Of a stretch of DNA of 64,000 nt, positions 331 through 64,000 are shown piece by piece. A model generated the notes under the pieces. The model worked only from the letters and a program-made list of their open reading frames with translations. It searched no databases and had not been told where the DNA came from. Source of the DNA: Brachionus manjavacas (taxonomy: Eukaryota; Rotifera; Eurotatoria; Ploima; Brachionidae). Numbering within the stretch: position 1 is the first letter of the stretch; each line of letters starts with the position of its first letter. A program made the position numbers and the translations under genes. The stretch covers positions 992,001 to 1,056,000 of the forward strand of contig JAHQIY010000022.1 of assembly GCA_019054805.1 (NCBI GenBank), in the 5' to 3' direction.

Positions 331-1114
331 TTAAAAGTGAGCGACGCTTAAAAAAAATACAAATAAAGTTGACATCTGAGATTGGAAAAAACGAATAAAT
401 TTAACAAAATAGCTAAATTTCTTCTTTGATTTTTGAATCAACATTTTTTATTGTTTCTAATTCTCATCCATCATTCTTTAGAATTAAAAATGTTCCATAA
501 TGAAAAATTTTGACTGAAATTAATTCAAAATTTTGTTTAAAAAATTAGGACACTAATATTTTGATTTTAAAATTAACAAAAGCCTTTCAGAGATTTGTCT
601 TTCTTGTTTTTATGTGTACCCTTAATTAGTGACCAGCACTCTTAGGTCTAACTCAAAATTGGGGCCTATTATAAATGATTTTGAATCCAACTGATGCTAT
701 TAATTTATTTTGAGAATTAAACTCGACTGCTCGTTTTAGGACGTTGTGAAATTAAGTAAAAAAATTAAACCAAAATATTTTCTTTTTTGAAAAATTAATA
801 GTGTAAAATAAAATTTTTTTTGTTGAATATTTTTTACCTATAATAAATTATTTTATTTCTTTATTAAATCAATCAAACCAATAGTCAAATTAAAATCTTA
901 TTGATGTTTTATTTTTTGACTTTATCATTCATCATAGAGTTTTTTTTCAAAAATTAACAATAAATTTAAAAAGAAAAAACAAACATTTTTTCGAGCGAAT
1001 TTTGGAAAAATTTTTTCATTTCATTGAAAAAAAAATTAAAATATAAAAGAATATTTAAAAATAAACTTTTTTAATATCGAAAATATTATGTTCTAATATA
1101 AATTAATAACAAAT
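331..1114. other. AT-rich spacer, nothing recognised
   Basis: Low-complexity A/T sequence without a convincing ORF, RNA gene or repeat boundary. Confidence 0.5.
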
Positions 1115-2283
1115 TACTTTTAATTTTGTGGTTATGTGGTTATGGACTAGGTGAGAAAATAGTAAGTTCGCTCGAAGACTTTTTGAGTATGAAAACTCAG
1201 CGAGTTGTGCTTGGAGATGGAGTTTCTAGATGGTCAGAGGTACTGAGTGGAGTTCCGCAAGGATCTGTACTTGGACCCCTGCTATTTGTTTTGTACATAA
1301 ATGACCTACCTGACTGCGTTTCAAATAAAATGGAATTGTATGCAGATGACTCAAAAATACTCGGTATAGTTAATAATGTTTATGAGAGAGCGATGTTACA
1401 GAAATATCTGGATGCAGAATGTCAATGGATAGAGGTTTGGCGTATGGGATTTTGTGCTAACAAATGTAAAGTAATGCATTTCGGCAGACTAAATGCAAGG
1501 CATAAATATACACAAAAAAGCAACAGGAATGTTATACTAGCGACCACAGATTGTGAAAGGGATCTTGGAGTGATGGTTTCATCAGATTTAAAGTGGACCA
1601 GCCAAGTGAAAAGTGCTTGCGCGAAAGCGAGTAGGGTACTTGGAATGCTAAAGCGAACGTTTACAAGTAGAGAGGAAAGACTGTGGGTAAGATTGTATAT
1701 ATCCATGGTGAGACCCCACCTAGATTACGCAGTGCAGGTTTGGAATCCAAGTATGAAAATGGACGTGAATGCGTTGGAAAAGGTGCAAGAGAGGGCAACA
1801 AAAATACCTTTGTCTGTAAGAAACATGCCGTATGAAAAGAGGCTGACAAAATTAGGACTGACAAAGCTGAGTGAAAGAAGAGTGAGAGGGGACTTGATTG
1901 AAATGTACAAACTAGTGAATGGAATAGAAAAGGTAAGCTTGGTCAAGAATCTAGTGAATAAATCAGAAAACAAGGGACCAGCCGGGGCGTTATGAGGAAA
2001 TAGCATCAGAGTCCAGAGAGAAAGTTTCCCAGCTAAAATTAGAAACGATTTTGCGGCTGCAGTAAATGCCAGACATGTATTTTTCTCAAACAGAGTAGTT
2101 CCGCATTGGAATAGGTTGCCAGAAAACGTGGTGAAATCCAAGTCAACCGCTAATTTTAAAATGGCTTTAGATAAGTTCAATGGAATCGGCTGCTACAGCT
2201 CTACACGGCCAATTGGCGGTGATGGGCTTAGACAATCTACATGTTAGGTGTCGCAGCAAGAACTACTACTACTACTACTACTA
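1115..2283 (+). mobile_element. 5'-truncated non-LTR retrotransposon, RT C-terminal half
   Basis: The frame 1126-2247 encodes the second half of a jockey/CR1-like reverse transcriptase. It has the primer-grip region GVPQGSVLGPLLFVLYINDL, the catalytic YADD box at about 1339-1350, the thumb region (VRPHLDYAVQVWNP) and the tail VFFSNRVVPHWNRLPENVV. The frame is interrupted once, by TGA at 1993-1995, and resumes in the same frame to TAG at 2245-2247; the TGA looks like a CGA-to-TGA transition. The 5' truncation inside the RT domain is typical of aborted target-primed reverse transcription. The 3' end carries about six ACT triplets (about 2262-2282), the tail expected of this class. Confidence 0.85.
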
Positions 2284-9068: not shown

Positions 9069-11030
9069 CATTTTCTTTAAAACTAAAAATAATAAAACAT
9101 TTTGAAAGATTTTTGAAAATATTTTTGAAATTTTTTATCACAGTTAAAAAATTCTAAAAAATAAATCAGCCATATAGTAAAATAAAGAATTGATGTAAAT
9201 TTTTTTTAAATATCCAAATTCCAAATCTTTATGAGATTTTAAATGAGATCTATTTAATTGATTCTATCCAAACCTTGACTAAAATTTTATCCAAAGCAGA
9301 AAAATTTTCCATTTTGCTACAAAATCGGATAAATTTTAAAGTTAAAAAAATTGTAAAAATTAAAGCAGCCACGTAGTAAAATATAGAATTGATTTATAAT
9401 TTTTTCTAAGTGTATTATATATATTAAGCTAGCTCATTTTGTAAAAAAATTTGTTATAAATCCTTTTGTAAATACAAATTTTGCCGAAATTCCAGTTATT
9501 TATCAATTGTGCCCCATTATTTATTCAAAATAGTTGGTGATAAGCTTAAAGCAGGTTTATGTGGAAGATTTTACCTTGAAGACTAAAAAAATTACAATAA
9601 CTTAAATGATTTTATAATCTAATTTTTTACTTCTTTTTGTCAAAACATTGATTAAAAATACCATAAGATGCATTTTATTTTATATTTCTAAATTTTATAG
9701 ATTAATAAAAAATTATTTGATTTTTTTCAAAAGTTAAGTAACGGCTTGCTCTCCAAGATTTCAAAAATGAATTAAAATATTTTATACTTTTCTTGTTCAA
9801 ACGATCTATTTCTGCAACTGCTATGAATGTTATTTGAAAAAATTAAGACGAGCATTTTAATTATGATTCTGTGAAAAAATTTAGTACCAACTTCCACATC
9901 TCAAGACTCTTGAGAGATTATTTGAGAGAATATTTTTTTGTCATCTGATAAAATTTTTGCTAGAATTTTTATCTAAAAAAAAAATAGATAAACATAATTA
10001 ATAATGGCTAAAATTATAAGTGATTTTTAATTTTAGATAAAAAAAATTTTATTTATTTTGTGTTATTTTTACTAAAACACTAAAAATTACTTTTACTCAA
10101 TCATTTAAATAGAATGAAGTGTTCTCTTTAAAATCATTTCCGCTTGATAGGTAAGTTGCTGTAGGTCAAAGACGTTTCTTTTGTCACTTTAATTTATAGA
10201 ATTTATTTATCTTTCACTAAAAATGTTTAAATAAAAAATTTCAATTTAATTTATCGGATCAAAATGATAAGTTAGGGAATTCAATTAAAAAAAATTAAAA
10301 ACCAAGAGATTACTTATCATCATTAGTTATAAAAGGCTTAGAATTGTTTTATCACTATTTGTTATTCATAAATATAGTTTAAAATTTAATGCTTTCTCAA
10401 ATATAAAAAAGACTTAGTTATTTTAATTTTTTTCAGAAATTCCTCTTTTTTTTTTTTAATTTTTTAAATTAATTTAGAGAGCATTCAAACCAAAAACAAA
10501 AAAAACTTAAAGTATGCAAACATATTTAATAGACTAAGTTATGGAATAAAGGCCCAATTATTTTTTTTTTAAATTATAAAAAAATTAATAATTGAGTAAA
10601 TTTTGTGGATAGATAAATACTTTAGATCTAGCCAAAATAAAAACATATCTGGTAAAGTCGTGTAAATGTTTTAATTCGCTTCAAACACAAGGGTTATTTG
10701 AAATTAAAAAAAATTAATTGTGTTTATGAAATTGATTTCAATTAAAATTAAAATTTTATTTTATAAATTAAATTAAAGTATTATCGTATATTGATTGAAT
10801 TAATTTGAAACAGAAACAAACATAAGTATTAAAAAAGACAAGGAAAAATTTTGGTTCAATTAAATAGAAAAAACAACAGGATTCGAATACCTGAAAAAAA
10901 TTGAAATTTACAAAATAAAGGTTAAAAAAATTATCTAAATGTTAGATTTCTGCCTATCTTTGGATGGCCTTCAATTCCTATTGAGCACTTAAAAATAAAA
11001 AATTTAATTATTTTATTTAAAACAAAAAGG
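9069..11030. other. AT-rich spacer between TSFM and the KIF23-like gene
   Basis: Long A/T tracts and short diverged repeats; no ORF resembling a family, no RNA gene and no element ends seen. The first ~50 bases contain AATAAA (near 9099), a likely TSFM poly(A) signal. Confidence 0.4.
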
Positions 11031-13192
11031 TCAAATTACTTTATCTTCAATTATAAATGGATTTTTTTCAAGAACACCGGACGATTTACGATGCCTTGGC
11101 CTGGCCAACTGAGGTGATTTTAAATGCAAGCGTTCAATATCTGTAAATATAACACTGCTTCCTCCTGAAGGTGACTTTATAATATCTCCTTTAATTAAAT
11201 TAGTAACCACCTCTCCATATTCATCCTGCTGCTGATGTGTTAACACATATTTAGAAGATCTTTTGGTATCTTTAAATTCTAGTTTTGTAACAGAATTTTT
11301 TTTTGTCATTGTTGGTTGCATCAATGTATCCAATTTGGCCATATTTTGGGGTTTATGATCCAGCCAAACCTCGACTGATTTAGACCTTTTTTGGCCTCTT
11401 CTGTTAGCAACCGGAACTCCATTTATGAATTCAAAGTTTTCATTTCTACTCAACCTAAGCGTACTTTTTATGTTATTAGATAATTTTCTAATCTTTGGCG
11501 CAAGCTCTTTTTTTGGGCCATTTTTTTTCTCATTTTGACTCGATTGAGTTTTATTGATGGGCTCGTTGAGTGTCTTTAGGGCGCTGACTTTAGTGAGCGA
11601 TTCAGTCTCGTTACCAAAGGTAGTTACAGAGCTTTTGCGTCGCGTTAAATTTGCTTCCTTTCCTAAATACATCTCTATTTCATTTGTGAAGTCATTCATT
11701 TTTCTATCAAATGAATTGTCAAATTTAATTTGGCTTATTTTCTGTTGCAGTTCAGTCAAGCGTTTGATCAATTTTGTTACATCATGATGTCGATTAAAAA
11801 TAGTCGACATTTCGTCACCATTTGAAGTGTCAATTTCGTCTTTTGCCACTCTTTCCTCTTTGAACTCTTCATAGATTTCCTGGTTTGATTCAGCATCATC
11901 TTCTATTCTTTCATATTCTGCAAAGCTTTTGAAAAAGGTCGAACTTGCAGCTATTTTAGGGGTGGAAGTTGAGTTGAAATTTGACTCGAAATCAAATTTA
12001 GTATTAGCAAATTTCAAAACATTCTTTGGAAAAAAAAATAAAAGCTGATTTTTTTAGCTCAAAAACTTACACAAGTGTCACTGAGTTCTTCTTGCGAAGG
12101 ATTCAGACAAAGAACGATTTTAATTCTAGAATCAGAACAAAGAAAATTTTTAAGAGCCCAAGTTAATTTGGACTCTCGATAAGGTATTTTAGCGCCCGAG
12201 TATCGTTTTTCTTTTAAAGCCTCGAAACAATTTCTCAATGCCATAATCGAAGATTTGATGCATTCGTTCTCTTTCAAATTGTTGCTCTGAAAAGCCAAAT
12301 CAACAATGGAAAGCTTTGAATAGCGATTATTGCCGAGTGCAAGTTTTATGGTCAAAATTCTGTGGCTTATGGATTCAGTTCTTGATGCCAGACCAAAAAA
12401 TAAAAAATCCATGGCCTTTTTTATGCTTTCAACTTCAATTTCACTAGCTTTATCTCTTTTTTTTGAATCTTCGCTTTCTAACAAGTCTACAAATTCATTG
12501 TGAACCAAACCGGTATAACTAATAAATACAGAGTATTTTCCAAGTCGATGTGCTCCTGGATTTTGCTCATAAGGAACTCTTTGATGCCATTTATGATTTG
12601 GAATTTTTTTGTACAAACTATCACTTTCGTCTGAATCAGAATAATTTTGAGTAGCTACCTAGAAAAAATCCTCACAATCATTTTTATTTTATTTTTTGAA
12701 AAATAAAATACCTCCTGAAAGTTTGACTTGTGCCGTTCAATTAAATTAAATAAAAGAAAAAAACTTTCTTGAATGATTCCATTGTCTTTTTCATTACCAT
12801 AAATGGTATACTCTGTTCCAGATTTGCTAGCACCATGAAAAACTAGCAGTGAGTTGACACCGTTGAATAAGTCTTCTATTGTCGGCCTACAAACTTGATT
12901 GAATAATTCGATTTGAGTTGAATTTGAATCGAATATTTTATTTAAGTAAAAAGTTTGCTTAAATTAAGATAAATAAATTTTACACATTTGGAAAATTAGT
13001 TTTCAATTTACTGTCTTTTTTGCGCCGTACTTATGATTTTCCTATAAATTATAAAATATTTAGGTGAAATTGTAAAAGGAGATTTTAAAATTTTACAGGC
13101 AGGGACAAAACCAATTCTTTGTCGTTTTTAGTGAGACAATTTTTATATCTGTAATTTAGTGGTTTGATTCTGGCATAAATTTCTGGCTCCAT
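11031..13192 (-). CDS. KIF23/MKLP1-like kinesin-6 with degenerate ATPase motifs
   Basis: Five exons (13192-13097, 13041-13012, 12957-12712, 12658-12071, 12023-11031) join in phase to about 650 aa. Order: start EPEIYARIKPL (the CRVRPL strand), kinesin motor, short linker, basic tail. The tail holds the segment shared with human KIF23: RSKSVEVWLDHKP, MQP, KYVLTHQ, LIKGDI and SVIFTDIE (the Arf6-binding region). KIF23 with CYK-4/RacGAP1 forms centralspindlin, which bundles midzone microtubules in cytokinesis. Odd: the P-loop is GASKSGTEYT where kinesins have GxTxSGKTYT, so the Walker A Lys is lost. Switch I SSRSH is ESISH, and switch II DLAGSE is DLAFQS. IPYRESKLT and the rest of the fold remain. 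The coiled coil is much shorter than in KIF23 (about 950 aa). All frames are open, so this looks like a gene for a non-hydrolysing kinesin rather than a pseudogene. Confidence 0.88.
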
Positions 13193-16379: not shown

Positions 16380-17760
16380 ACTCTGAATTCTAAAACGATT
16401 AAAAATGAAGCGGCATCAGGACCAGACCAAATTCATAACTTAATGTTTAAAATCTTACCTAGAATTCATTTATAGAAATCATAGAGCTTTTTAATTTATC
16501 AGGTGAAGTTCGGAAAGCGTGGAATACTTCGAACATTTCTATGATTCAAAAAAAGGCCTCTACTTTTCAAGATCCTTTAAATTATAGACCAATTAGTAAA
16601 ACGAGTTGTTTAGAAAAGTTACTGAAACGAATAGTCTATTCAAGATTATACAATTTTTTGGAACAAAATTCACTTCTTATCTAAGAGCAATCTGGATTTA
16701 GGAAACACCGGCGAACATCAGATAATCTTTTCTTTTTAATTCAGAAAATTGTGGAGTCATTTAATAGAAAAAAAAAATGACCATCTGAGCGAAGAATATC
16801 AAATAACTGCAGGTGTCCCTCAAGGCTCGGTAATTAGTCCTCTTTTATTTAGTCCATATATTAAAGACATCCCCAAAAGAAACAAAACAAATAATGAATA
16901 CTCTCTGCTTTTCGCAGATGATCTAGTTACATTCTTCATTTATAACAAAAAAGGGAACCTAGAAAATAAGATTAATAAATACACCAACGAACTAGAACAA
17001 TGGCTTATTAAATGGAAAATGAAGATATCAGTTGAAAAGTCGTGTTCAGTAGTCTTTTCTAGGTACAAAAAAGAGGGTGATAATCTTAACTTAAAAATTA
17101 ATAGAAACAAGAAAATGAGCCGAAAAGAAATTAAGTTTCTTGGTATTAAATTTGATTCCAAGTTAAATTTTAATATATTGGTAGACGAAATTAAAGAACC
17201 CTAAAAAGGCTGAAAATTATTAAGTTACAGTCAAACAAAAATTGGAGTCTTAATCAAAATACACTAGAAAATTTATATAAATCTTTAGTTTTCCTTGCTT
17301 GAATTCATTTTCAGAAAATAATATCAAAAAACTACAAGCAATTCAGAATACAGCAGTAAGATCTATCCTTAAGTTAAAATGTAATACTCCCACCGACATC
17401 TTGCATCACGAGGCTTTTAATAAACTTAAATTACTAACAGTCTCGAATCGGCTTTTTGAGTTGAGTAAAAGATATGTTGAGACAGGTGGGAGTCATTCTA
17501 TTCCATTGATTGTCAGACTTGTGGAGGAATACAAAGAAGGTTTCGAATCGAGATATATTGAATATCCAACTCCATTGTGTAATTGCTTCCTTACTATTTC
17601 CTCTTTTTTTTCGAAAGCTTCAACTGTGTAAAAATGTGTCAAATGTAATAATCTATTTCAATATGTCTTTTAACTTTCTTTATTTTTTTTGCTCATTTAC
17701 TTTAATTTAATTTTTATTTGATCTTATTTTATTCTGAAGGAGCTCTAGCTCGGTACAGAA
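16380..17760 (+). pseudogene. Jockey-like reverse transcriptase pseudogene lacking motif A
   Basis: Pieces of one RT lie in order on the plus strand: ASGPDQIHNLMFKILP (about 16412), LNYRPISKTSCLEKLLKRIV, SGFRKHRRTSDNLFFL, then GVPQGSVISPLLFSPYIKDI, the catalytic FADD box, WLIKWKMKISVEKS and LQAIQNTAVRSILKL with the tail at 17299-17631. Between QKIVESFNRKKK and DHLSEEYQI the segment that should carry the first catalytic Asp (motif A) is deleted. Together with several stops and frameshifts, this makes the copy dead. Confidence 0.85.
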
Positions 17761-38774: not shown

Positions 38775-41700
38775 TTACATTTTAACATTATTAAAAACAT
38801 CATAAAAAACTGGATTCCTTGTGTATTTTGTGCCTTTCGGTAATGTTATAGTAATATCGTCAAAGTCAGATACCCTTGAGAGGGCTACGTAAAGTTGTCC
38901 GTGACTGAATACCGGATTTTCAAGGTACACTCCTACCCTTTTCAATGTTTGACCTTGCGATTTATTGATAGAAATAGCAAAAGCAGGTCTTACTGGGAAT
39001 TGTGTTCGCTTGAAGTCAAACGGAAGACCTGAATCGGATGGTATCAATGGTACCCTTGGAATATGAACAGATTTACCTTTTAACTTACCTATTGCTATTT
39101 CGGCTTCTATCAAGTGTTTGTGTAAACGTTTGACAATCAATCTAGTTCCGTTACATAGTCCCATATTTGCCGCTATGTTTCGAAGAAGAATAATTGGTTG
39201 ACCAACTTTAAGAGACAATTTGAAGGGTGGAATGCCAGGTGGATTGATACTATTTAGAAATTCGGTCGGATATTGTGCTGTATCGGAGTCAACGACTACC
39301 GAGTCTTGAGACAAATACTCCATAATCTCACCTGGCAAAAAAGATGTTGCTATTTCGTTTATCGAATCCACTTCTTCGTTTGTTGGACATAGGATAGCCG
39401 AATCAATAAATTCATGTGGGTTTGAACTGAATTAAATTAGATTAGTTATAAGTAAGAATTAAAATAAGAAAATAAAAAAAATTTACTTGGTGCAAATATT
39501 CAGGAAGATTTGCTTGATCAAACCTTCTTTGTCAAAATGATTTATAAGTTGTTCTGGCAATTCAATCAAATCATCATAACCATTAGGATCTTTATACCTT
39601 TTTTCTTTACCCTCTCCTATTCTTAGGAGAAATTCAGAAAAATTTCGAGCTCTTTCGCTGTCTCTACCTGTTTTGTTTAACACTCGCATATTAAGTTTTA
39701 ACTTCATGATTGTAACATGATTCCAAAACGTTGACTTGTTTAATGTGGCATTAACGATTTGAGCACTATTTCCTTTTTTAATAACCGGCAGAATTTGTCT
39801 AAAGTCACCTCCAAATAACATAATCTTGTTGCCGAAAAATATTTTTTCAAAATTTTTGTTTTTAACTTTACATAAGTCTTTGAGGGTTTGGTCAAGTGCT
39901 TGAAAAGCATGTTTGTGCATCATGGGGGCTTCGTCCCAAATTATTAAATCGGCTTTGTGAATCAATTCGGCAAGGTCTGACTGAACTGAAATGTCGCAAG
40001 TTGATGTATTTGTAAGATTCAATGGAATTTTGAATCGAGAATGGGCTGTTTTTCCAGCAGGTAGAAGTAAGGCTGCTATACCGGACGAAGCAACTGAAAG
40101 TACAATTTTGTTCTGTGAGCGCAAATAAGCTATTATTGTGTTGTACAGAAAAGTCTTCCCAGTGCCACCAGGTCCATCGACAAAAAGATTATTATCAACT
40201 ATTTTGAAAGAAAAGTTAATTTAGTTATATTAATGATTAAATTGTGATGTTTTTAAATGTACCCTGGTTTTCATTGTTGATCCTTTCAATTATTGAATTA
40301 AATATTTGTAATTGGTCTACATTCAATTGTCGATGATTCTCAGCATATTCATTTTTTAACATTTCGACGTCATAATCTAGCTCTTCATTAATAAGGTTAT
40401 TGATTGAATAAATTGGTCGAATTTCATCAAAATTTATAATCTTGTCTTGATCGTATTTAAAAAGTTCCAATATCTGCTCTACATTTTTGGAACTACTCTG
40501 GAGAATTCGGCTAATGTAAAATAACGAAGTGTTGTAAACTTTATCATCGTAATTTAGAGTTTGATCGTTTTTATGGTTTCGATATTTGTACAAAATGTCG
40601 GTCGATAGATCATTTTTGAAACGTTCCCATAAATTTTTCATGTCTGAAGGTTGACAATTTTCTAAAATTATGACAAAAAACTTCCTCAATTCTTCGATGT
40701 CTGTAATTGTTTGACATGCTTCTTCAAGAGATTCACACCACTGATTATTGGATTCAAGGTACCCATTTTTTTGAGCGGCTTCTTGAAAAGTTGAACATAA
40801 CTCTCCATTAACCGTCAGTAGATCTTCAAATGATTCGGGTCCCTTTTTATAAATCAATAAAATACGTAAAGCAAATCGTTCTATATCGCTTGGGTGAACG
40901 AAATACATTCTACCGATTATTGTTTCATCTGGTCTTAAATAATAAACTTAGATATATCGTATAATTAAATTCTAATCTTAATTCGTTTACCTGGACTTAA
41001 CTTTCCAGTCTTTTTCCTTTTCATTAAAGGTAAAATATTTTGGAATTTCATAATAGAAATATTGCTTTGCCAAATCAGGTTTTTTTTTGTTGAGCTTAAA
41101 AAATGCTGTGAGTTCTGTCTCATTTGACGTTTGTAAGATTTTCTCTTTAGGATCATTTGCTTTGAAAAAGCAAGTTTGTCGGTTTGGGAGGTGTACTGGT
41201 AATCTTCTGGTTTTCGGATACTGATCGGTTAAGCCAAAATGAAAAAGTCTCCAAATGCACTCAGGAGCACTAATGTAGCGCATATCTATGAATTTCTCAA
41301 TCTCATCATTCACTTTTAGACTGGTATCAGTGCTTAAAGAATTGGGCCCATTAGGATCATCGGTATTAATTGAGATAAGAGACTTGTCATGGCCTTTAAT
41401 TAAAATTATAACTCTAGATTATTATGCTTTTAATAAGATTACCTTTGTAAACATATTTAAAGAGATATTTGACTGCTGCGACAAAATTACACACTTCTAC
41501 ATTGATATGGCAGTTGTATTTCGTTGAAAGATACGGATTATAAGGTACAACCCATTTATTGTCTGGATTATTTGCGCTTCGTTTATAAATCGGAAAGGTG
41601 TTATTTGACATAATTGTTTCTTCAGTATATTCCTTTGGGAATTTCTTACTACATTTACCATCTACCATGCATGGTGCATTTGGGTAACCTGGACCACATG

Positions 41701-44499
41701 GTCCATGCATCATAGTCGATTTCACAATTTTATAAATATTTGGGAATTCTTCTTTTGATGGTATCTCAGCACTAACTGCAAGGTCAACTTGTTGAGCTGT
41801 CTTTATCTTATCGTCTGGATGCAATATTATAAGAATATGCGCATGAGGAAGGCCTCTTTTTTGGAATTCAATGACGTAGATATGTCCGATTGTTCTTCCC
41901 ATTACATGATTTTTTATAAGGTCTTTGATGAGCATTTTTAATTTTATTCGAAAATACCGAGCGACTAAGTCCGGACGATCGTTTGGTGTTTGTGAAAAAA
42001 GCAGATTTTTTTTCAGGCCTGGCCAATTTGGATTGCATGTCATTGTAATAAACATATCAGGTTTGCCGAGAGCTCTAACAACAGACATAGCATCTTGGAA
42101 TAGTTCGTTCATGTGTCTAGGGCTACCTGTAAATGAAGACGGTAGAATAACCTTCTTACCGATGTTTTCCATTTCTTGATCTTCTCTGTTCACAGCGTCT
42201 ATTAGCCCTTGATAAAGTTCGGCCCGAATACTTTCCTGATTAAATCGTAAAAATCTCAATCTACCACTCTCAACCTTTCCTGCGTATTGTTCTACGATAT
42301 ACTGATGAAAAAGTCTACCAAATAAATTCAAGTTGGAATCTTTTTTAAAAAAAGTTAATATTAAATTCTTATTCAATAGGGAAACAATTTGTAGAATACC
42401 TGGTCGATCTTGTAATTGATACGCATAGTATTGCATAGCCGATACGTATTTAACTTTCTCGGATTCATTTCGATTTGAATCGATTGTTGTTCTCTTATTA
42501 GGAGTATCCTTAAGCGGATAAGTGTCAAATTGCCATCCCTGTTCTCCATTCGGAAACATAAGAACATAATGAAGGGGGTCAGAATAACTATAAATCGGGT
42601 CTATAGTCTTCATCTTGCCATCCTTAGTGTGAATTAGAAACTCGTTTTTAACGGCTTCGGAGTCTTCATTCGAAATCAAAGCGGCTACTTCTAGGGCTGT
42701 TGGTAAATTGTAACGTTTATCTTTGGCTACGTGTTTTTTAAGGACAATGTTTAAATTGAGAGATGGATCGGTCCTGAACCTTCTGCCTAATTGTTGATAT
42801 AATTTAACGTACGGATTTGATCTCATTAATGAGTTTTGAAGTCGGTTCAGAATGTTTATATTAATCACTGATTTAAATTTATTTTCTCGGTATTTTGCTT
42901 GAAACTCCGGATCATATAAATAGATTTGAGAGTAAATTGGGTTTTGTGAATCATCGGGTTTTAAATTGCTGATTCTTTGAACAACTGGTCCGTTTATTCT
43001 GTAGGTGTATACACCAGATGTTGATTTCATCAAATCTCTATTGTAATTCGATTTAATGGACGTGAACGATAAGATTTTGTTATAGAGTCTAATATTTTTT
43101 CTAAAATCTTGCGCTTCGGTCGAGTTGTCAGTTAAAAGTTCAAAAATTTCTTCTGGTGGTGTGTTTTGAGTTGGAAGGAGAACTCTCCCTTTAGCACAAC
43201 AAATTCCAAATTGAGGATTGGTTAATGTTCCGTCTGATTTTTCTTCTATCCACGTAGAAGCGGAACAATATTGACAGATAACGGTTCTTTTTGGAAGAAT
43301 AATTGATCCGAAATTCTCTGAATCGGGATCTGTATCGATATATTTACCAATTATCTTTTTAGGATCATATTTTTTACGGGCAATCAAATAGCTTCTTGCA
43401 TTTGAGGTCTTTTTGCTACAAAGTAAAAATATTTAAATACTCGATTATGAAAGACTTGAAAAAAAAATATAAATACGTATGATCTGTTATTGTAGGTACT
43501 ATCTGAGTCGTTGATTCAATAGCTTCTATGGCAGATTCGATATCATCGTTTATAAATGCACTCAATCTTTTTTTATTTAATGGACACTCTCTATGATTTA
43601 TTCGTTGGTGTGATATACTACCACATTTACATTTTTTGGGTTGAATACCATTTTGTAAAATATGAGAATTAGTCGACTGATTTTGATTTAACTGGATCGA
43701 GTTGGCCTGATGTTGTACACCAATAGTATTGACTATGCTGGTCGATTGAACATAATAAGATTGTGGTGAATCCAAGATTCGACCAAAGGCATTTACTGGC
43801 TTTAAATAAAAAAATTTTTAGAAAAATATCTTTTGGGGGTTCAATTTTTATTACATTTGTTTGACTTGTTGGGATTGAAGGTGAAGAATAAAGGTTGTGG
43901 GATGTTGAAGGTCTTGGATGAGGGTATTGGTTTGGACGATTGACATGAGACATGTTATCTAATTGAAAATTTAAATTTCGACCATTAATGTGAGCAGATG
44001 ACCGATCGATAGTCCGGGGCGATGATAAAAAATTGGTATTAGGTTAACTTGAGATACTACTAAATGCATTTGCTTTCTTTAAAAAAAAAAGGTTATCGAA
44101 GAATTATGGGGGTTCATTTTTTCTTACATTTGTTTGACTTGTGGTGATTGACGGTGAAGAGTAAAGATTGTGTAAGTTGGAAGAGCCTGGATAATGGTAT
44201 TGGTTTTGGGAGTTGAGTTGGGACGTTGGAGCTTGATATGTGCTAAACAATTGCGATGAGAGTGATTTGCCAGATTGTTGTAGACCAGCAATAAGATATT
44301 GGTTTTGATAGTTTACATATGATCTATTAGTCAGTTGACATGTTACTACTTCTATTGGTGAAAAGGGAGTTGTTTTATTTTTTTTTCTGGGGCCATTTTC
44401 GAGACTTCTCTGTCTTTTTCGATTAGTGGGTGTTAAAAAGTTCTCTTTTGATTCAACTGGGATGTGGATTAATTTGGTTTTTACAAAGTTGTTAATCAT
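38775..44499 (-). CDS. Helitron Rep-helicase polyprotein, nine exons, open frame
   Basis: Rolling-circle transposase. Exons 44499-44128, 44076-44049, 43958-43855, 43799-43477, 43415-41443, 41393-40991, 40933-40263, 40198-39487 and 39426-38775 join in phase to about 1745 aa. All introns are GT...AG, 49-90 nt. Domains: a Gln/Asn/Ser-rich N-terminus (residues 1-280) with a zinc-knuckle-like CKCGS...H...CPLN; a CxxC zinc motif (CQYCSASTWIEE); the Helitron N-terminal domain; the HUH nuclease motif PHAHIL; the two-tyrosine motif KYLFKYVYKG; and a Pif1-family helicase with Walker A GPGGTGKT, Walker B IIWDEAPM, FGGDFRQILPV and the C-terminal INKSQGQTL and YVALSRV. Every catalytic residue I can check is present, so the copy may be active or recently inserted. 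Confidence 0.93.
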
Positions 44500-49314: not shown

Positions 49315-49386
49315 GCGTCAGTGGTGTAGCGGTTATCATTGTTGCCTTCCAAGCAGCAGATCCGGGTTCGACTCCCGGCTGACGCA
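49315..49386 (+). tRNA. tRNA-Gly (anticodon TCC)
   Basis: Acceptor stem GCGTCAG/CTGACGC (49315-49321 with 49379-49385) plus discriminator A at 49386. The D arm contains GTGTAGCGGTT. The anticodon stem GTTGC/GCAGC encloses the loop CTTCCAA with anticodon TCC at 49348-49350. The T arm is CCGGG-TTCGACT-CCCGG. Internal A box (TGGTGTAGCGG) and B box (GGTTCGACTCC) are intact. No intron. It reads GGA glycine codons. Confidence 0.97.
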
Positions 49387-53655: not shown

Positions 53656-56600
53656 ATGAGCGATAAGGCTCCGAGAATCACAGTTAAACCAAGTTTACAG
53701 CAGTTGGATAATGGAAACAAGTTGGAGTTTCATTGTCAAATCGAAGCTAATCCAAAGCCAGAAATAAAGTGGTCCAAGGAAAATGTTCAAATAGCTGAGT
53801 CTGCTCGAGTCAAGTCGAGAATTGAGCCCAACAGCGATAATCTTTACGATTTGTACTTGGTCATCGACAATTTGACTTCGGATGACTCGGGACAATTCAA
53901 GGTTTCGGCCAAGAACCGACTTGGCGAAGTGTCAGCGGCCATTGCTCTCAACTTTGCAGGTAACAACAATAGAAAATTAATAAAAAATATTTAAAAAAAA
54001 ATTTTTTTTTTTCCAATTTTTTCAGCCGAAACTGCTCAAAAAGGGTAAATAGAATTTTTTTTTGTTTGCTTTGTATTTAAGAGAAATTTTTTGCAGACTT
54101 CAGGATGGCACTGCTCCTAATTTTACCCAAAAGCCGACGATCAAATCGGACGCCGACGGCAAACGATTGTGCTTCGAGTGTAAAATTAAGGCAGAGCCGG
54201 AGCCAGAAATTTTCTGGTTCAGAGACAACCAGCCAATTGCCAACAAAGGACGTTTTCTTATCTATTGCGACAAGTTGCCCGACAACATGTACTTTGCTTG
54301 TCTTGAGATCGACGATGTGGCCATGAACGATGCCGGAAAGTACAAGGTGCAAGCCAAGAACAGTTTGGGCGAGTCGAACGCCTCTATCACTCTGAATTTC
54401 GATAGCGATGAAGCCGCACCATCTAGCCCAGGCGGAAAGCCGGTTTTTGTCCAAAAGCCTTTTATTCGTCAGTTGGAAGACAAGATTTTTTTCGAGTGCA
54501 AACTAGCTGCCGAACCACTGCCAACTTTTACATGGTATTTGGACAATTCTGTCCTAAACAACCCAGCTAAGTACAAGAAGCGCATTTTGAGCGAAGGCTC
54601 GACTCATACCATCATTTTGGAAATTAACAATCTCACTGCCAGAGACTCGGGCGACTATAAAGTGGTTGCCAAGAACTCGCATGGTGACGCCGATGCCAAT
54701 ATTAAACTCAATGTTGAATCGAAAAGAAACGCCAAGTAAATAAATAATTTCTTTTTTTTCTCATTCAATTTAGAATATTTTTTTGCTCAAAAAGATTGCC
54801 TGATGGCATTGCACCTCATTTTATCTCCAAACCTTTGGTTAATCAGAGCCAGGAGTCGTTGCTAATTCAGCTAGAACTAGAGGCGAATCCGACTCCGAGC
54901 GCTTCATGGTTCTTGGACACCAAAGATCTAAATGACATCGACTCTAGATTTATTACCAAGACAGAAAAAATTTCTGCTGACAAGTACAGACTAAGTGTAG
55001 AAATTAGAGTAAGCTTTGTAATTTTTAGAGGCGCAATTGAGGCGCATTTAAAATCAAAAGCGAATAATTTATGATTTTAACCTTTTTTCTTTTTTCCCAG
55101 AATCCCAAGAACACAGATGCTGGCTTGTACAAATGTGTTGTAGTTAACGAATTGGGAGAATGTGTGGCAAACATTTTCTTGCAGTTCGAAGGCAACAAAG
55201 CCGGTCTGAACAAAGGAGACCAATTGCCGCCATCCATTATCGAAAAGCCCAAAATTATCAAGGACGAAGTGAAAAGAACAGTTCGCATTCAGGTCAAAAT
55301 CAGAGCTAAGCCAGAGGCTCAAATTTCTTGGTTCAAAGAAAAGCAAGCTTTGAAAAGCGACAAGAAATACAAGATCGAGACCAAAAAGGAAGCGGACAAT
55401 GCTTATTTATTGACTTTGGAGATATCGGACTTCACCCCAGCCGATGGCGGCCTGTTTAAAGTACAGGCCAAGAATGAATCTGGTCAAACAAATGCAAATA
55501 TTCATTTGAATGTAGAAATGTAAGTTTTTTTTGGATTTAGATTTTTTTTTAGATTTTTTTTAATAAAAAGAATTTTGAAAAAAATTTTTAATTTTAATTT
55601 TTTTAGTCAAGAAGATAAGCCAGTGTTTTTGGGCCAGCCGAGAATAATCAAAGAGAACAAGAATCAGCGTATTGTGTTCGAAGTCGATTGCGGATCTAAA
55701 ACAAAACCTCAAGTCGTGTGGACCAAAGACGGAAAGAGCATCAAGAACGAGGGCCGTTTTTTGATCGACATTGACGACAGCCAAACAAACATTTTTGTCA
55801 TCATACTTGAGATTGATAAAGTTGTGCCGCAAGACGCTGGAAAGTACAAGTGTACGGCCAAGAACGCCAAGGGTGAAAATTCGGTGCTCATTGAATTTAA
55901 TTTTGAGGGCGAGCAGGAAGAGAAAAAGCCCGAAGAAAAGAAGCCCGAAGAAAAGAAGCCCGAAGAAAAGAAGCCCGAAGAGAAAAAGCCAGCAGAGAAG
56001 AAGCCTGAGGAGAAAAAGGCCACCGAAGCGCCAGCTGCTTTTAAAGAAAAGCCCAAAGATCAAATTGGTTTGGATGGTGATCGAATTACAGTCACATGTA
56101 AAGTGGCCGGCTCGCCAAAGCCAGAAATTACCTGGTTTAAGAACAAACAAACCATACGCAAGTCCAAAGATTTTAACATGGAGTTGAATGGCGAAACAGC
56201 CAAATTGACCATTAACGACGCTTACACTGAAGACTCGGGTGAATATTCTTGTGAAGTGTGGAACGAGGCTGGCTCGCAAACATCTTCGTTCAAAATAACC
56301 ATCAAAGAAAAGAAAGGAAAAATGAAAAGAAATAGACCTAAGCAAAAAGAAGAGGCCAAGACTGAGGAGGAGGTTCGCAAAGAGAAGCGCAAGTCTGATG
56401 CCAAAAAACAAGCTGAACAACCAGCACCAGAAGCTGTACCAGCTCAGTCAAGCATAAGTAATACTTAATTTTTATAAAGAAAAAAATGTTTAGAAAAAAA
56501 AAGGAAAAAATCCATGTTCGTAGTTAATTCCTTTATTTTATTTGATTTTTGATTAAATCATTTTTTTTTTATTGAAAAAGATTAATTAGTTCTGGAAATG

Positions 56601-59600
56601 CAAAAGAACTAACATTAGATGATTAATCTTTGACTAAAGTCTCCGCAATTTTGAATTAAAACCACAATAGAAAATAATTAATCAAACAGCGCAATAACTT
56701 AATCAAAGATTTTACTCCTAATGTAAATTATTTGGCAATTTTCAGAACCAATTTATCTTTTCCAATAAAAAAAAAAATTTACTCCGAAAGGAATTGGTTT
56801 TGTGAAATTCAGTAAAAAATGACAAATGAACAGAAAAAAATGTAAAAAATTGAATTACTTTTTTCCTGAAAGTTATGAATTAGTTCTGTGAATGCAGAAT
56901 GGTGCAACATTCAAAATTTTAGAAAATTAAATTTTTTTATATTTTGTAGTGAATTTCACAAAACCAAGGAATTGATAAGGGGGGAGTGAATTTCTGATAA
57001 ATTCGAATTTCAATTTAAGGGTTGTGAATTTCAGTTGGAATTGAACAAAAATAATTCCTTATTTAAATTTATTTTGTTTTAGAAATTTTTAATGTAAAAT
57101 TAAAAAAAAAAAGGTAATATTTTTGTTCAATTTGTACTTAAGTTCAAAACGCCTTCAATTCAGCTAAATGAAAATAATTAATCTTAACAGAAGAGATGTG
57201 TACTTTTTAGGTCTGCAAAAATTCTGCAAATATTAAAATACTTTTAATGACGTATATGATTTTTGGCGAGAAGTTATTTATCTCTTCTAATAGAAAAAAC
57301 TATTCAAATTTGGCTAAATTGAAAGAAACTTAAACTTTTCAATTGTGACAAAATTTTTTTTCATTTATCTCTAAATTTTTAAAAAAAAAACAGCCCCGAT
57401 TTACGAAGAAGAAGGTCCTCGCAGACCACTTAAAGTTCCGCCACCAAGCAGCGGAGACTCGACCCCGACTGGACCAGGCAGTCGTAAGACATCTCAGCCA
57501 GCAATTAAATTAGATGTTATTGACGAAACAGGAGGTAATTTTTAGCTTTAAATCTTTCTATTTTTTTGTCCAAAGCCGTTCTTTCCAATTCTTTCTAATC
57601 ATGACTCTTAATCAATTTAAAGCCAGAGTGGGCCATCGAAAGTCAAGTGTAGTTGCTCCTAGCGTGCGTAAAGTAAAGCCTAATCTAGAGGCCCATACTG
57701 ATGCGATGGCGCCTGTTTTCTTGGAAAAACCAGAGAACAAGCTCATTATAGAGGGTTCTAGTGATTTCATCGAAGCTGTGGTGGATGGCAATCCGTTTCC
57801 GCAAATAACCTGGCTGAAAGGTGAAAAAAAGGTGTTCGAGGGCCCCAAGTTCACATATGAATGCGATAAATCCACTGGCGTTGTAGGTCTGACAATCAAA
57901 AAGGCTAAGTCTGACGATGAGTCAAAGTACACATTGAAAATAAGCAACCCTAGTGGGGAGGAACGAGCCACGTTCTCGATCTTTGTCAAATGTAAAACTT
58001 AAACTTTAAATTCTTTTCCATTATTTAAATGACTTAATGAAAAAATAAACAGCTGGTAAAGACGATGGTATTGATTTTAGGAATTTGCTTAAGCATAGAG
58101 AACATGCTAAAAATAAAATAGATGGTGAATCTGGAGAAAAAGTCGATCTAAAACAAGGTCTGTTCTTCTCAGGTCTTAGTCGCTTATTGCATGCGTAGCA
58201 AACGCTTAAATTCGCTTTAAACGCTTTTAATTTCCGCTTTCGCTTTTTTATGCTTAAATACGGCTTAATTACTAGTCTAAATTGTAATTAGAAAAAATTA
58301 ATAATTTTTTTCTATCTTTTTTAGTCTCCGAAAAGAACGAAGATGAATTTGAGGTAAGATTTTTTTTTGTTTTTTTTTTTTTATTTAGAAAAATTTGAAC
58401 AAAAAAGAGGACAAAAAAATTTATCTTTATAAATTAATAGAAAGATAATGGAGCTAAATCATCGAGTAGACGTAACTCACAAATTGAGAATCGTCGTACG
58501 TCAATGAAACATGTAGAAAAGCCCGAAAATTCACTTAAAGTCCGCAGGGATTCAAACTCGAGACGCACATCGTTGGCCGAGTTGATCCCCGACTGGCCAG
58601 TTCTCTCAAAAAGCAAACGAACTGTTAAGGTTAATCAAACATTAGATACTTAAACTAACAGTGTTCAGTTTACACTAACAAACTAACAGTCCTCTTTTAT
58701 CTCTCTCACTCTCTATCTCTGAGTCTCTTTTAATTGAAAAAATATAAATAAATTTTAAAATTTTTTATAGCGACCTGTTTTGAAAAAATCGGTCAAATCT
58801 CATGTAATTTAAATAGTTTTTTTTTGTTGTTGATCCAAATCATCGCTTAATTTATCCAAAATTTTAGCAGATCCAATTTGTTTGGCCAAAAGTCCACATT
58901 TTCCTCGTCATTTTTTCCAAGTGATCCTTATTTATTTCAGCATGATTAACTTTTGCATGATTTTGACTCGAGTGAAGTAATTGCGGATGTGATCGCAGCT
59001 CATTTTGTTAAACTTTGACTTTGAAAGGAGCCGGAAAAGTTTGTGAAACCTTTGGTTGACACCCATGCGTTGGAGGAAGATGGCTCGGTTAGCTTTGAGT
59101 GCACTTTCTGCAAAACAGGTGGAAAGTTAAGATGGTACAAGAATAAGCAGGAAATTTTCCATGGCTTCAAATATCACATTGAAACCGAAGGCGCCAATTA
59201 TAAAATCAAGATTAACAAGTTAAATCCTGATGATGAAGGAAAGTATGTGTGCAAGGTGAATGAGGTCGAAACATTTGCCTATTTGACTGTCACTCGTAAA
59301 ATATTTTTTATCTAAAAAATTTTTTTTATATTAAATGATTTTAAAAAGCGGCCAAGCCCAAATTTGAGTTCTTGAAAAAACTTCCCGTCAAAATGGAAGT
59401 ATTTAGGACCAAGCACACAGTGCTCGAGTGCTTTGTCAATCATGATGAATGTGTACCCACTTGGTACAAAAATGGCAAGGTCATCAAACCCGACGACAAG
59501 CGATACAAGCTAACCCAAGAGAAATTATCAGGCAGATGCACACTGCGAATCACCAAAAACATCAAAGAAGACGAGGGCGAGTACTCGTGTGCTATTGATG

Positions 59601-62600
59601 ACGAGGAAAAAACAAGCTGCTATTTGTATGTAGAAGAGCCAGCATTTAAATTCATCAAGCGTTTGCCACAGCAAGTCGAGGCCCACGAAGGCTTAAATGG
59701 TGAATTGGAGTGCGAAATTGAAGACCCTGATGCTGAGTGTGACTGGTACTTTGAAGGAAAGGTAAAAAAATGCACAAAAAAAATAGAAATTAATTATTTA
59801 ATTGTTGAATTTAAGAAAATTGATCCCGAAGATGATGCCGACAAATATGAAGTGGTTGTCATTGATACCAAGAGAAAATTGGTAATCAAAAAAGCTTCTA
59901 TAAAAGACCGAGGTCGCTATGAGTGCAAGTGTGGCGTGGTCACCACTGGCACTGAGCTTTTTGTTAGACCAGCACTGAAATTTGTCAAAGAGTTGGCAGA
60001 CACTGAGGCAATCGAAGAGGACACTGTTGAACTGGCAGTCGAGGTCACTAAATCAGATCAAAGATGCAGATGGATAAGAAATGGCCGCAACATAAATCCA
60101 AATGAGGAAAGATTTGCCCACAGATATGTAATCATATCCGAGGGAACTATTCATAAATTGACAATCAAAAATTTGAGCCTTAAAGACGCTGGCGAGTTCA
60201 TTGTGCATGTGGATGAACTCTCCAGCAAATGTAATCTTGCTGTCAAGGAATGCGAAAAATTGCCTCGCGTTGACATGAGCTCAATACCTAAAGTGATTAA
60301 AGTAAAAGCTGGAAAAGATGCTGACATCGAAATACCATACACATGTAAAAATATATTTTTTTTTTTTTTTAATTAGAATAAAGATAAAATGGAAAATAAA
60401 TTTAAATTTTAGCTTTTCCCATACCGCTTGCTTCGTGGAGAAAAAATGGCCAACCACTTGATCCAAAACGAGGCTTGCAAAAAAATGATGACAAAAAGGC
60501 CAATTTGAAATTGGACAAAGTGCAACGAGGTGACAGCGGCAAATATGAACTAGTTTTGAAGAATAACAAAGGAGAAGTTGTGATACCAATTGAATTGGAT
60601 GTTATTGATAAACCTGGTGCTCCAGTGGGACCATTGAAAGTAAGCGATGTGACCAAGGAAACAGCTGTGTTGTCATGGCAGCCACCCAAAGACGACGGCG
60701 GTGCTCCCATTGAGAAGTATGTGATTGAAAAAATGGACGTTGCCAGAGGCGAATGGACCCCAGCTGAAAGTGTTTCTGGCGTGGTTAACCAAGTCAAAGT
60801 ACCAAGACTATCGGCTAAAAAAGAATACAAATTCAGAGTTCGTGCGGTCAACAAAGAAGGAGAAAGTCCTAATTTGGAGACCGAAAGTGGTACAATTGCT
60901 AAAAATCCATACGATGAACCAACTGCTCCAGGCTCAATTGAAATCCTGGATTGGGATGCTGTACTCTAATTTTTAACTAATCTAAATTAAAAATTTGTTT
61001 GAATTTTTTTTTTAACAAGGATCGAATTGAATTGGAATGGAAAGCACCTGAGAATGATGGCGGTGCGCCAATCGAAAAATACCTGATTGAAAAACGTGAA
61101 AAAGGCTTGAAAACTCCGTGGGTCAAAGCTGCTGAGTGCAACTTTCCGACCACCAAAACAGCTGTCACTGGACTATCCCAAGGCAAAGAATATGAATTTA
61201 GAGTCATGGCTATAAACAAAGCTGGTCCGAGTGAACCAAGTGAAGTGAGCAGATCGCAAATTGCCAAGCCAAGATTTGGTTAGTAACAAAATCAAAAAAA
61301 CAAACATGAAAAAAAAATAAATTTTTTATTCAAGTTGCGCCAAGAATTGACAAAATGAGTCTTAAACCCGTGACTGTCAAGGCAGGTCAACCAGTCAATA
61401 TTGATGTTAATTTCATGGCCGAACCTGAACCAACTGGAGTTTGGTCAATTGAGGGAAAAGAAATTACAAACAATGAAAGAACAACAATAAGCTTAGGCGC
61501 AAAGACCTCCAAGCTTGTTTTGACAAACTCAAAGCGATCCGATACTGGAAAGTATACCATTAAGCTAACAAATAGCGTGGGCAGTGACAGCGCTTCGATT
61601 GAAGTGTGCATTTTGTGTAACAAAATTTCTAATCAATTCACAACATTTTTAAACTAATTATTTTATCTAAAGCTGCTCCAAGCCGACCAAATGGTCCCAT
61701 TGAAGTGAAAGATGTTAAAAAGTAGGGTTTTTTTTTGAATAAAATTTTAAAATGTTGTTTAATCATTAATAAAAAAATAAATAAAGAGATAGCGCTACTA
61801 TTTCCTGGAAAAAACCTGATGACGATGGCGGCAAAGAAATCGGTTCTTATATTATTGAGAAAAGAGACAGAAAAACTGACAAATGGGAAAGAGTCAGTGA
61901 TTTTGTTCAAGGCAATTCGTTTACTGTACCAAAACTAAAAGAAGGACATGAGTACGATTTCAGAGTAATTGCTGAAAACCAAAATGGTCAATCTGAACCA
62001 TTGGAGACTGCAGATAGTACTTTGGCCAAAAATCCATTCGATCCTCCAGGTCCGCCTGGCAAATTGGAATGCTTGTCTCGCTCATACAATCACATCGAAA
62101 TTGGCTGGAAGAAACCGTCAAATGACGGCGGTGCTCCAATCAAGGGCTACATAATTGAGAGGAAAGAAAAAGGCGGCAAAAAATGGAATAGAATTAACAA
62201 AGATTTGAATAAAGACACTTCGTTTTATGATGACAAAGTTTTGTCTGGCAAAGAATACGAGTACAGGGTGTCGGCGGTGAATGAGGGCGGAGAAGGTGAA
62301 CCAAGCACAACTCCTTTAGTCTTGCCCGCTAAACCAGAAAAAGAAAGGCCCAAATTTGACCGAAGCAGTTTGTTCGGCCAGGCCAAGGAATTGCGCATCA
62401 AAGCTGGAGAGCCAATCGACATCGAATTGCCAATTGTTGGTGCTCCGGTGCCAGAAGTTTCTTGGTTCAAAGATGGCGCAAACACACCGCTACACAACAA
62501 TCAAAACGGAGTTGCACTCTCTACTGACGAAAAAATCACCAAATTCTACAAACCCAAGGCTCAACGAAGCGACACCGGAAGTTACGAGGTCAAGCTGAAG

Positions 62601-64000
62601 AATTCTGAAGGAGATGACAGCTTGCCGGTAAAGATTGTAGTTTTGGACAAGCCTGGCCAGTGTGAGGGTCCATTGGAATGCATCGATTCAACAAAGTCAT
62701 CGATCACTCTTCAATGGAAGCCACCCAAGGACGATGGAGGATCGGAGCTTTCTGGCTATGTGATCGAAAAGTGTGCCGAAGGAAGCGATGTGTGGGAAAA
62801 ATGTCCAGGCATTTACATTCAACCCAAAGCTACTGTCAAACACTTGGACGAGGGAAAATCGTTCAAATTCAGAGTAAAAGCTGAGAATATTCACGGCGAA
62901 GGTGAACCATTGGAAACCAGCAGACACATTGTAGTCAAGCCACCCTATGACCCGCCAAGTCCACCATCGCAGCCAGAAATTGCCGATTTCAATTTCAATT
63001 TTATTCGATTGAAGTGGAAAGTTCCGGAAAAAGATGGCGGCAACCCGATCAGCGGATACATTGTCGAAATGAAAGAGCAAAACTCGGACGAGTGGATTCA
63101 ATGCAACAGTTTTCCGGTCAAATTGCCAGAGTACACATGCACCAACGTGAACGAAGGAAACACTTACGAGTTTAGAGTCAAAGGAGTCAATGATGCCGGA
63201 GCTGGTGTTCCATCCAAGCCGTCTAAGGCCCAAAAAGCAGAGACACCCATTACGCCTGCCGCTCAAATGGATCAGCCAAAAGTTGACAACATCACCAAAG
63301 ACTCGGTTGCTTTGTCGTGGAAAAAACCACTGGACGATGGCGGCTCAAAGATCACTGCTATTGTGATCGAAAAAAAGACGCCTGATGGCGATTGGGAAGA
63401 AGTGTTGGAAATTCCACCCAAGGACAATCATGTTGTTCTAAAAGAGGTTAAAGAAAACGAGGAATGTCAATTTAGAGTGCGGGCCAAGAACGCTGCCGGT
63501 CTTAGCAATCCGAGCAAGCCAACCGACGTGATTAAGATACAAGATCAGCCCCAAAAGCCAACTTTTGAAATAACACACATGAAAGACATTGTGGTAAAGT
63601 CTGGCCAAAATTATGAGATACATGTGCCATTCAAGGCCCATCCATTGCCCAATGCCGACTGGACCATTAATGATAATGAAGTTCAAGTCGAAGCTGACAG
63701 AGTTGAAATTCAAACATTGGAAAATGTTGCCAGCTTTGTAAATCACAAAGCTAAGCGCAAAGATGCTGGCTTGTACAGATTGACGCTGAGAAACAGAGAG
63801 GGCGCTGGATCAATTACTTTGAAAGTTAATGTCTTGGGTAATTTAATTTTTTTAGGCCGAATAGGAGAAATTTTTTTAAAATTGTTGTTGTTAAGATCAT
63901 CCGGAGAAGCCAACCGGTCCATTGGAAGTACTCAATTTGGATGCCGAGTCTTGTACTCTTGCATGGAAGCCACCAGCTGACGATGGCGGAAATGAAATTA
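53656..64000 (+). CDS. Twitchin (titin-like muscle giant), N-terminal ~2600 residues, 3' incomplete
   Basis: Thick-filament-associated Ig/Fn3 protein of invertebrate muscle (UNC-22, projectin). Twenty-one exons keep phase: 53656-53959, 54026-54044, 54097-54735, 54795-55008, 55101-55519, 55607-56457, 57394-57534, 57623-57991, 58053-58157, 58325-58353, 58441-58629, 58771-58803, 59028-59295, 59349-59761, 59816-60344, 60413-60960, 61020-61278, 61335-61616, 61673-61721, 61787-63837, 63896 onward. Order: six N-terminal Ig domains (repeated QKPTIKSDADGKRL-type starts), a KKPEE repeat linker, Ig, a Ser/Pro linker, Ig, then the twitchin signatures GKDDGIDFRNLLKH and RRTSLAELIPDWP, more Ig, then Fn3/Ig modules (KPPKDDGG, YVIEK, Y-E-F-R-V) in the Ig-Fn3-Fn3 rhythm. 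RRTSL fits a PKA site of the kind mapped in molluscan twitchin. The C-terminal kinase would lie beyond the window. Confidence 0.95.
55918..56021 (+). repeat. 15-bp coding repeat (KKPEE)n in twitchin
   Basis: About seven units of AAGAAGCCCGAAGAA, with silent and one or two amino-acid changes (KKPAE). They encode a Lys/Pro/Glu linker between two Ig domains, similar in composition to PEVK springs. The central units are nearly identical at DNA level, suggesting recent slippage. Confidence 0.9.
56787..56973. repeat. Palindromic MITE copy in a twitchin intron
   Basis: GGTTTTGTGAAATTCA on the left and TGAATTTCACAAAACC on the right are perfect inverted repeats. The inner sequence GTTCTGTGAATGCAGAATGG, then TGCAACATTCAA, matches the palindromic repeat at 23519-23889. 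It lies within the intron 56458-57393. Confidence 0.75.

Follow-up and report, generated by a model that had tools for sequence, protein, structure and literature searches.

A KIF23 duplicate in the rotifer Brachionus manjavacas that is predicted to keep the Arf6-binding tail behind a motor domain lacking residues for ATP hydrolysis

ZEN-4 and MKLP1 bind CYK4 through a long neck situated between the motor and the coil (PMC4395295). MKLP1 also binds Arf6 directly, and this binding promotes recruitment of either Arf6 or MKLP1 to the midbody, the wording of the source being ambiguous as to which of the two is recruited (PMC12886786). Centralspindlin biology that is independent of the motor is likewise on record. 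Kinesin heads without ATPase activity are already known from other families; a kinesin-6 case appears to be new, in that no report of an ATPase-dead kinesin-6 was found among the open-licence papers listed, although one may have been missed.

We analyzed a window of 64,000 nucleotides (contig JAHQIY010000022.1; GC content 30%) from the 114 Mb, 61-contig genome of Brachionus manjavacas, in which a preliminary description had placed a KIF23-like gene at positions 11031–13192. Our gene model, hereafter KIF23b, reproduced this span exactly on the minus strand (13192–11031), and the earlier claim that its frame stays open was borne out with canonical splice sites; however, the five exons and 650 codons previously reported had to be revised to four exons encoding 640 amino acids plus a stop. 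Exon 1 (13097..13192, aa 1–32) contains the start of the motor, exon 2 (12712..12957, aa 33–114) a degenerate P-loop, exon 3 (12071..12658, aa 115–310) degenerate switch I and switch II motifs together with the alpha4-L12-alpha5 region, and exon 4 (11031..12023, aa 311–640 plus the stop) the end of the motor, a linker and the Arf-binding tail. The three introns measure 139, 53 and 47 nt, and all of them are GT-AG and in phase 0. An AATAAA polyadenylation-like signal, a word common in AT-rich DNA, starts 14 nt past the stop (11012..11017, minus strand).

Inspection by eye of the remainder of the window revealed retroelement-like frame fragments flanking KIF23b at 1102–1995 (+), 16740–17204 (+) and about 14350–13740 (−), Helitron-like helicase and replication-initiator frames in several pieces at 38775–43432 (−), and a large titin/twitchin-like gene with Ig and fibronectin-III repeats at 54053–63980 (+). 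A tRNA-Gly (TCC) at 49315–49386 (+) was the sole Rfam match in the window at the gathering threshold. The 23-mer spliced leader of bdelloids was searched for in the genome and found nowhere at up to 2 mismatches, and B. plicatilis ESTs likewise displayed no spliced leader (PMC1925144); this agrees with a monogonont rotifer without being diagnostic, as the bdelloid leader is missing from other animals as well. EF-Ts occurs at two loci in the genome: the gene in the window is the weaker match and is hit in two pieces (51 and 36 bits), and the other (C21:91647-92279) is a strong one-piece match of 226 bits, which may represent a further gene, one acquired by transfer, or a contig of bacterial origin.

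The tail of KIF23b (aa 515–615; 11109..11411, minus strand) matched the Pfam model MKLP1_Arf_bdg (PF16540) with 111.8 bits (cut-off 28.2), and it was also matched by the human KIF23 Arf-binding chain 3vhx (E 2.9e-20, 75.7 bits). This region includes RSKSVEVWLDHKP, KYVLTHQ, LIKGDI and VIFTDIE; the last three blocks and VWLDHKP had all been listed in the preliminary description, and every one of them is present. At E values up to 1, PF16540 yielded two matches in the genome, one in KIF23b and the other at C1:5137223-5137522, within a gene that we refer to as KIF23a.

Genome-wide, the Pfam Kinesin model produced at least 53 matches, which were assigned by position to at least 28 motors in at least 27 loci. 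The Lys and the Thr/Ser of the GK[ST] P-loop were readable in 26 of the 28 motors, with those of loci L013, L018 and L027 read by eye across an intron. The two motors in which GK[ST] is absent are KIF23b and the kinesin-like motor of locus L021 (C4:6166498; IITYGYNSSQTSIG), the latter of which we take to be KIF26-like.

The KIF23b motor (aa 30–317; 12003..13105 including introns, minus strand) exceeded the Kinesin cut-off of 29.3 with a score of 132.1 bits. When it was searched by BLAST against the kinesin loci of the genome, omitting loci that contain KIF23b itself, the best match was KIF23a (127 bits), followed by L005 (84.3 bits); a closest relationship to KIF26 was not observed, L021 being included in the search but absent among the matches listed. 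A tree covering 11 of these 28 motors joined KIF23b to KIF23a with a support of 0.998; the KIF20-like L015 and the other multi-exon motors were left out of it, and L024 offered no usable frame. Against solved structures, the KIF23b motor gave weak matches to many kinesins and scored 71.0 bits with 7tr1 (in two stretches), 70.2 bits with KIF18A (5oam) and 67.9 bits with ZEN-4 (5x3e), the last of which was matched by KIF23a with 268.9 bits; since ZEN-4 scores just below 7tr1 and KIF18A, KIF23b could not be named a kinesin-6 by structure search alone. The earlier assignment to the KIF23 type is nevertheless supported by the PF16540 tail and by KIF23a as the nearest motor, and the same two features speak against membership in kinesin-11 (KIF26).

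That a functional KIF23 might exist elsewhere in the genome had been guessed beforehand, and our genome search indeed identified KIF23a (locus L012) as an intact paralogue possessing all three motifs, GVTGSGKT, SSRSH and DLAGSE. KIF23a scored 302.1 bits with the Kinesin model, in comparison to which the KIF23b motor is clearly weaker, and 114.7 bits with the MKLP1 tail model; it comprises at least 833 residues, any exons upstream of its motor exon lying outside the model. An intron before NVLKF occupies the identical position in the two genes, and KIF23b has two extra introns within the motor. Because this intron position is common to both, an origin of KIF23b as a processed retrocopy was rejected, and the evidence points to a DNA-level duplication of KIF23. 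GC3 differs strongly between KIF23b (0.29) and KIF23a (0.61). Across 15 open kinesin frames it spans 0.22–0.70, and L001, whose kinesin frame is intact, has a value of 0.22.

The nucleotide-binding motifs were compared by aligning KIF23b to KIF23a and to nine further motors encoded in the genome, the placement of gaps being alignment-dependent. The P-loop is degenerate, reading GASKSGTE (12811..12834, minus strand) at the position of GVTGSGKT in KIF23a, and its Lys-Thr pair is replaced by Thr-Glu. Switch I reads ESISH where KIF23a has SSRSH (12362..12376), and switch II reads DLAFQS where KIF23a has DLAGSE (12284..12301), both on the minus strand. Nine residues are missing from KIF23b directly before ESISH, and the stretch from switch II to alpha4 consists of 1 residue in KIF23b vs. 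10 in KIF23a, making loop L11 nine residues shorter. The RIRPL sequence, presumably the base-binding motif, is changed to RIKPL in exon 1, and RxRP is only partly altered. The motif IPYRESKLT of L12/alpha5 (12161..12187, minus strand), which faces the microtubule in other kinesins, is retained, and the alpha4-L12-alpha5 region has a net charge of +5 in KIF23a and KIF23b alike. The alignment with the 10 motors therefore confirmed the loss of SGKTYT, SSRSH and DLAGSE as well as the conservation of IPYRESKLT, both of which had been read from the raw sequence before.

In kinesins, catalytic waters are contacted by an Arg of switch I and by a Gly and a Glu of switch II, and alanine mutants at any of the three displayed very low ATPase activity in kinesins other than this one (PMC7931232). 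In KIF23b, these catalytic-water contacts are replaced by Ile, Phe and Ser, respectively. The motor alignment and the mutant data (PMC7931232) lend support to the earlier claim that residues needed for ATPase activity have been lost; the predicted KIF23b motor is without the residues required for ATP hydrolysis, although its reading frame is otherwise intact. Any contact with microtubules would be at most static: L12 and the basic charge are kept, yet the shortened L11 would remove part of the usual contact. Single-sequence AlphaFold models of exon 3 and exon 4 were too poor (pLDDT 39.5 and 44.0) and were discarded.

The two domains of KIF23b differ in how far they have departed from KIF23a. 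In the motor tree, the KIF23b branch measures 1.18 substitutions per site vs. 0.52 for KIF23a, approximately a twofold difference. The tails score nearly equally, with 111.8 vs. 114.7 bits against the Pfam model and 75.7 vs. 77.5 bits against human KIF23 (3vhx). A codon model fitted to the KIF23a/KIF23b pair rejected omega = 1 overall (2dlnL 212.7), in the motor (122.9) and in the tail (106.6); the rejection was weaker for the middle region (8.2), where the alignment is near chance. Since the pairwise omega of 0.008–0.045 mixes both branches and was obtained with the divergence time at its fitting bound, we rely on nothing beyond the rejection of omega = 1. Synonymous sites are saturated between the two genes, and the same codon is used in 23 of the 67 tail codons that specify identical residues, which argues against recent gene conversion. 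That the tail scores are nearly equal despite this saturation suggests that the KIF23b tail has been kept by selection of its own and renders a neutral pseudogene unlikely. When random drift of the KIF23b coding sequence was simulated with substitutions alone and no indels, the frame remained open in 1 of 300 runs (0.3%) at 0.05 hits per site and in 0 of 300 at 0.1.

These data bear on several other explanations of the locus. KIF23b could be a pseudogene whose function is gone and in which stops have yet to accumulate; its GC3 near the AT-rich background, in comparison to that of KIF23a, the long and gappy motor branch, the linker without similarity and the retroelement-like fragments seen by eye nearby would all fit such a state. 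We consider this improbable, however, given that the frame is open and its three introns are canonical although synonymous divergence is saturated, and that the tail lies as close as that of KIF23a to human KIF23 and the Pfam model; a low GC3 is also seen in the intact frame of L001. A slow or unusual motor with non-canonical ATP binding or hydrolysis would be compatible with a Kinesin score well above the cut-off and with a RxRP motif that is changed only in part, but KIF23b has other residues in place of the P-loop Lys, the Arg of switch I and the Gly and Glu of switch II, both switch regions are shortened, and the low activity of the alanine mutants of other kinesins at the Arg, Gly or Glu described above makes such a motor very hard to envisage. 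We give even less credence to an artefact of the assembly or of the gene model, for instance alternative exons that would restore the motifs. The motif loss is known from assembled sequence alone; nonetheless, three separate motifs are altered in frame by substitutions and by shortening in codon lengths, and introns of such small size leave little space for alternative motif exons.

A further alternative, which we regard as unlikely but as deserving more weight than the pseudogene, is that KIF23b is still a centralspindlin subunit, in the form of a non-hydrolyzing regulatory head whose partner would be KIF23a or either of two CYK4-like proteins. Vik1 and Cik1, the non-hydrolyzing regulatory heads that act with Kar3, provide a model for this. 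Two CYK4/RacGAP1-type genes are present in the genome, with their main exons at C8:4690636-4692255 (L031, whose upstream exons are in L035) and at C3:6567750-6569543 on the minus strand (L032); the two share 61% identity across 516 aligned residues, each possesses C1, RhoGAP and GLYRVNG, and their GC3 values are 0.59 and 0.41, respectively. Matching N-terminal exons were found upstream in both copies (71–78% over 21–44 residues), and the presence of two such genes would suit a second KIF23 subunit; but the similarity of these exons in the two CYK4s gives no sign of one having adapted to a new partner. Two further loci in which C1 and RhoGAP lie side by side, L033 and L034, resemble RhoGAPs of another type by eye and were excluded from the CYK4 count. 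A weak heptad stretch is kept in KIF23b (aa 391–418; 11783–11700, minus strand), although the best heptad score was reached in 23 of 200 shuffles, in comparison to 3 of 200 for KIF23a. No similarity was detected between the neck/linker as a whole (aa 318–514; 11412..12002, minus strand) and the neck of KIF23a: past the first residues, the region from NVLKF to the tail matched KIF23a at chance level in a one-to-one BLAST (E 0.57). A precedent for an inactive head working beside an active one does exist in trypanosomes, where KIN-B works beside KIN-A (PMC10987093). A normal KIF23-CYK4 tetramer containing KIF23b appears doubtful to us; binding could outlast such divergence of the neck, but a neck without recognizable similarity suggests that KIF23b is perhaps not a normal centralspindlin subunit.

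Other components of the midzone were also found in more than one copy. The PRC1/Ase1 model matched two loci (C1:9586241 and C4:6382580-6384331) and the INCENP model three places (C2:3085867, C16:86190 and C13:59598), vs. a single genome match for COX5B. These raw copy counts hint at a duplicated midzone module, with each extra copy a candidate gene. With COX5B single, CYK4, PRC1 and INCENP multiple, and EF-Ts at two loci of which one is possibly bacterial, a whole-genome duplication is at most a possible origin of the second KIF23.

Our preferred reading, in which we place a little more belief than doubt, is that KIF23b is a functional duplicate of KIF23, an ATPase-dead scaffold with a KIF23 tail that would reside at midbodies or at stable intercellular bridges, outside the canonical KIF23-CYK4 tetramer. 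Judged from sequence, the pseudo-motor part of this reading stands. We infer the ARF6 binding, the microtubule contact, the location and the role of KIF23b, and the role at bridges by analogy. Following the DNA-level duplication of KIF23, KIF23b would encode a functional protein unable to run the kinesin ATPase cycle. The function that has been kept most likely lies in the tail, because the Arf6-binding tail of KIF23b looks as constrained as that of KIF23a, and it would consist of docking to an ARF6-type GTPase on the plasma membrane, either at midbodies or at stable intercellular bridges. With its nucleotide pocket dismantled and its L12/alpha5 face and charge kept, the motor fold might provide at most a static, nucleotide-independent contact with microtubules, as in KIF26. 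Since the CYK4-binding neck is not recognizable, KIF23b probably acts beyond the KIF23-CYK4 tetramer, and a tail scaffold that is independent of the motor could either stabilize bridges or compete with KIF23a for a membrane partner. The lack of ATPase residues together with the lack of a clear CYK4 site means that KIF23b may best be viewed as a membrane-docking scaffold whose microtubule contact is static or absent.

The significance of such a protein would lie in how far the work of centralspindlin at intercellular bridges requires a motor. A duplicate that keeps the tail and stands beside an intact parent would allow the work of KIF23 as a microtubule motor to be separated, in a living animal, from its work as a membrane anchor. 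More speculatively, and with little confidence, we suggest that KIF23 could have split throughout a whole animal lineage into a central-spindle motor and a motor-dead tail scaffold off the CYK4 tetramer, the latter holding ARF6-marked membrane at permanent intercellular bridges. If so, KIF23b would represent the first kinesin-6 pseudo-motor and would offer a test, provided by nature, of how centralspindlin functions can be separated. The additional CYK4, PRC1 and INCENP copies would then be signs of a midzone module remodelled more broadly.

Vik1 and Cik1, which are kinesin-14 partners of Kar3, and Costal-2 have kinesin-like heads without a working ATPase, as is predicted for KIF23b. They belong to different families, being partner-dependent heads and a Hedgehog scaffold, respectively, and we know of no Arf6-binding tail in any of them. 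Kinesin-11 (KIF26 and VAB-8) is, to our knowledge, a separate family that has no MKLP1 tail. With KIF23/MKLP1/ZEN-4/Pavarotti, KIF23b shares the Arf6-binding tail with RSKS..WLDHKP, KYVLTHQ, LIKGDI and FTD(I/V)E; no other motor in the genome is as close to it as KIF23a, and the intron before NVLKF is common to both. Unlike KIF23, its nucleotide motifs are broken, L11 is shortened, the neck is unrecognizable, and the protein has 640 residues compared with at least 833 in KIF23a. KIF23b is also unlike KIN-B of Trypanosoma, an orphan kinesin of the chromosomal passenger complex for which the passages on it state no link to kinesin-6 and report no MKLP1 tail, a tail that KIF23b has (PMC10987093). 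KIN-B in addition lacks the alpha4-L12 residues, some of which KIF23b has retained, and its inactive motor head does not go to the spindle (PMC10987093), from which it follows that a dead head need not bind microtubules. Also resembling KIF23b are KIF26A/KIF26B and VAB-8, in which a kinesin fold has lost motifs for ATP hydrolysis; Kif26b has no ATPase activity and still binds microtubules (PMC3387196), an example indicating that an ATPase-less kinesin head can hold microtubules. Unlike KIF26, the loss in KIF23b sits in a duplicate beside its intact parent, in a genome that has the presumed KIF26-like L021 as a separate gene.
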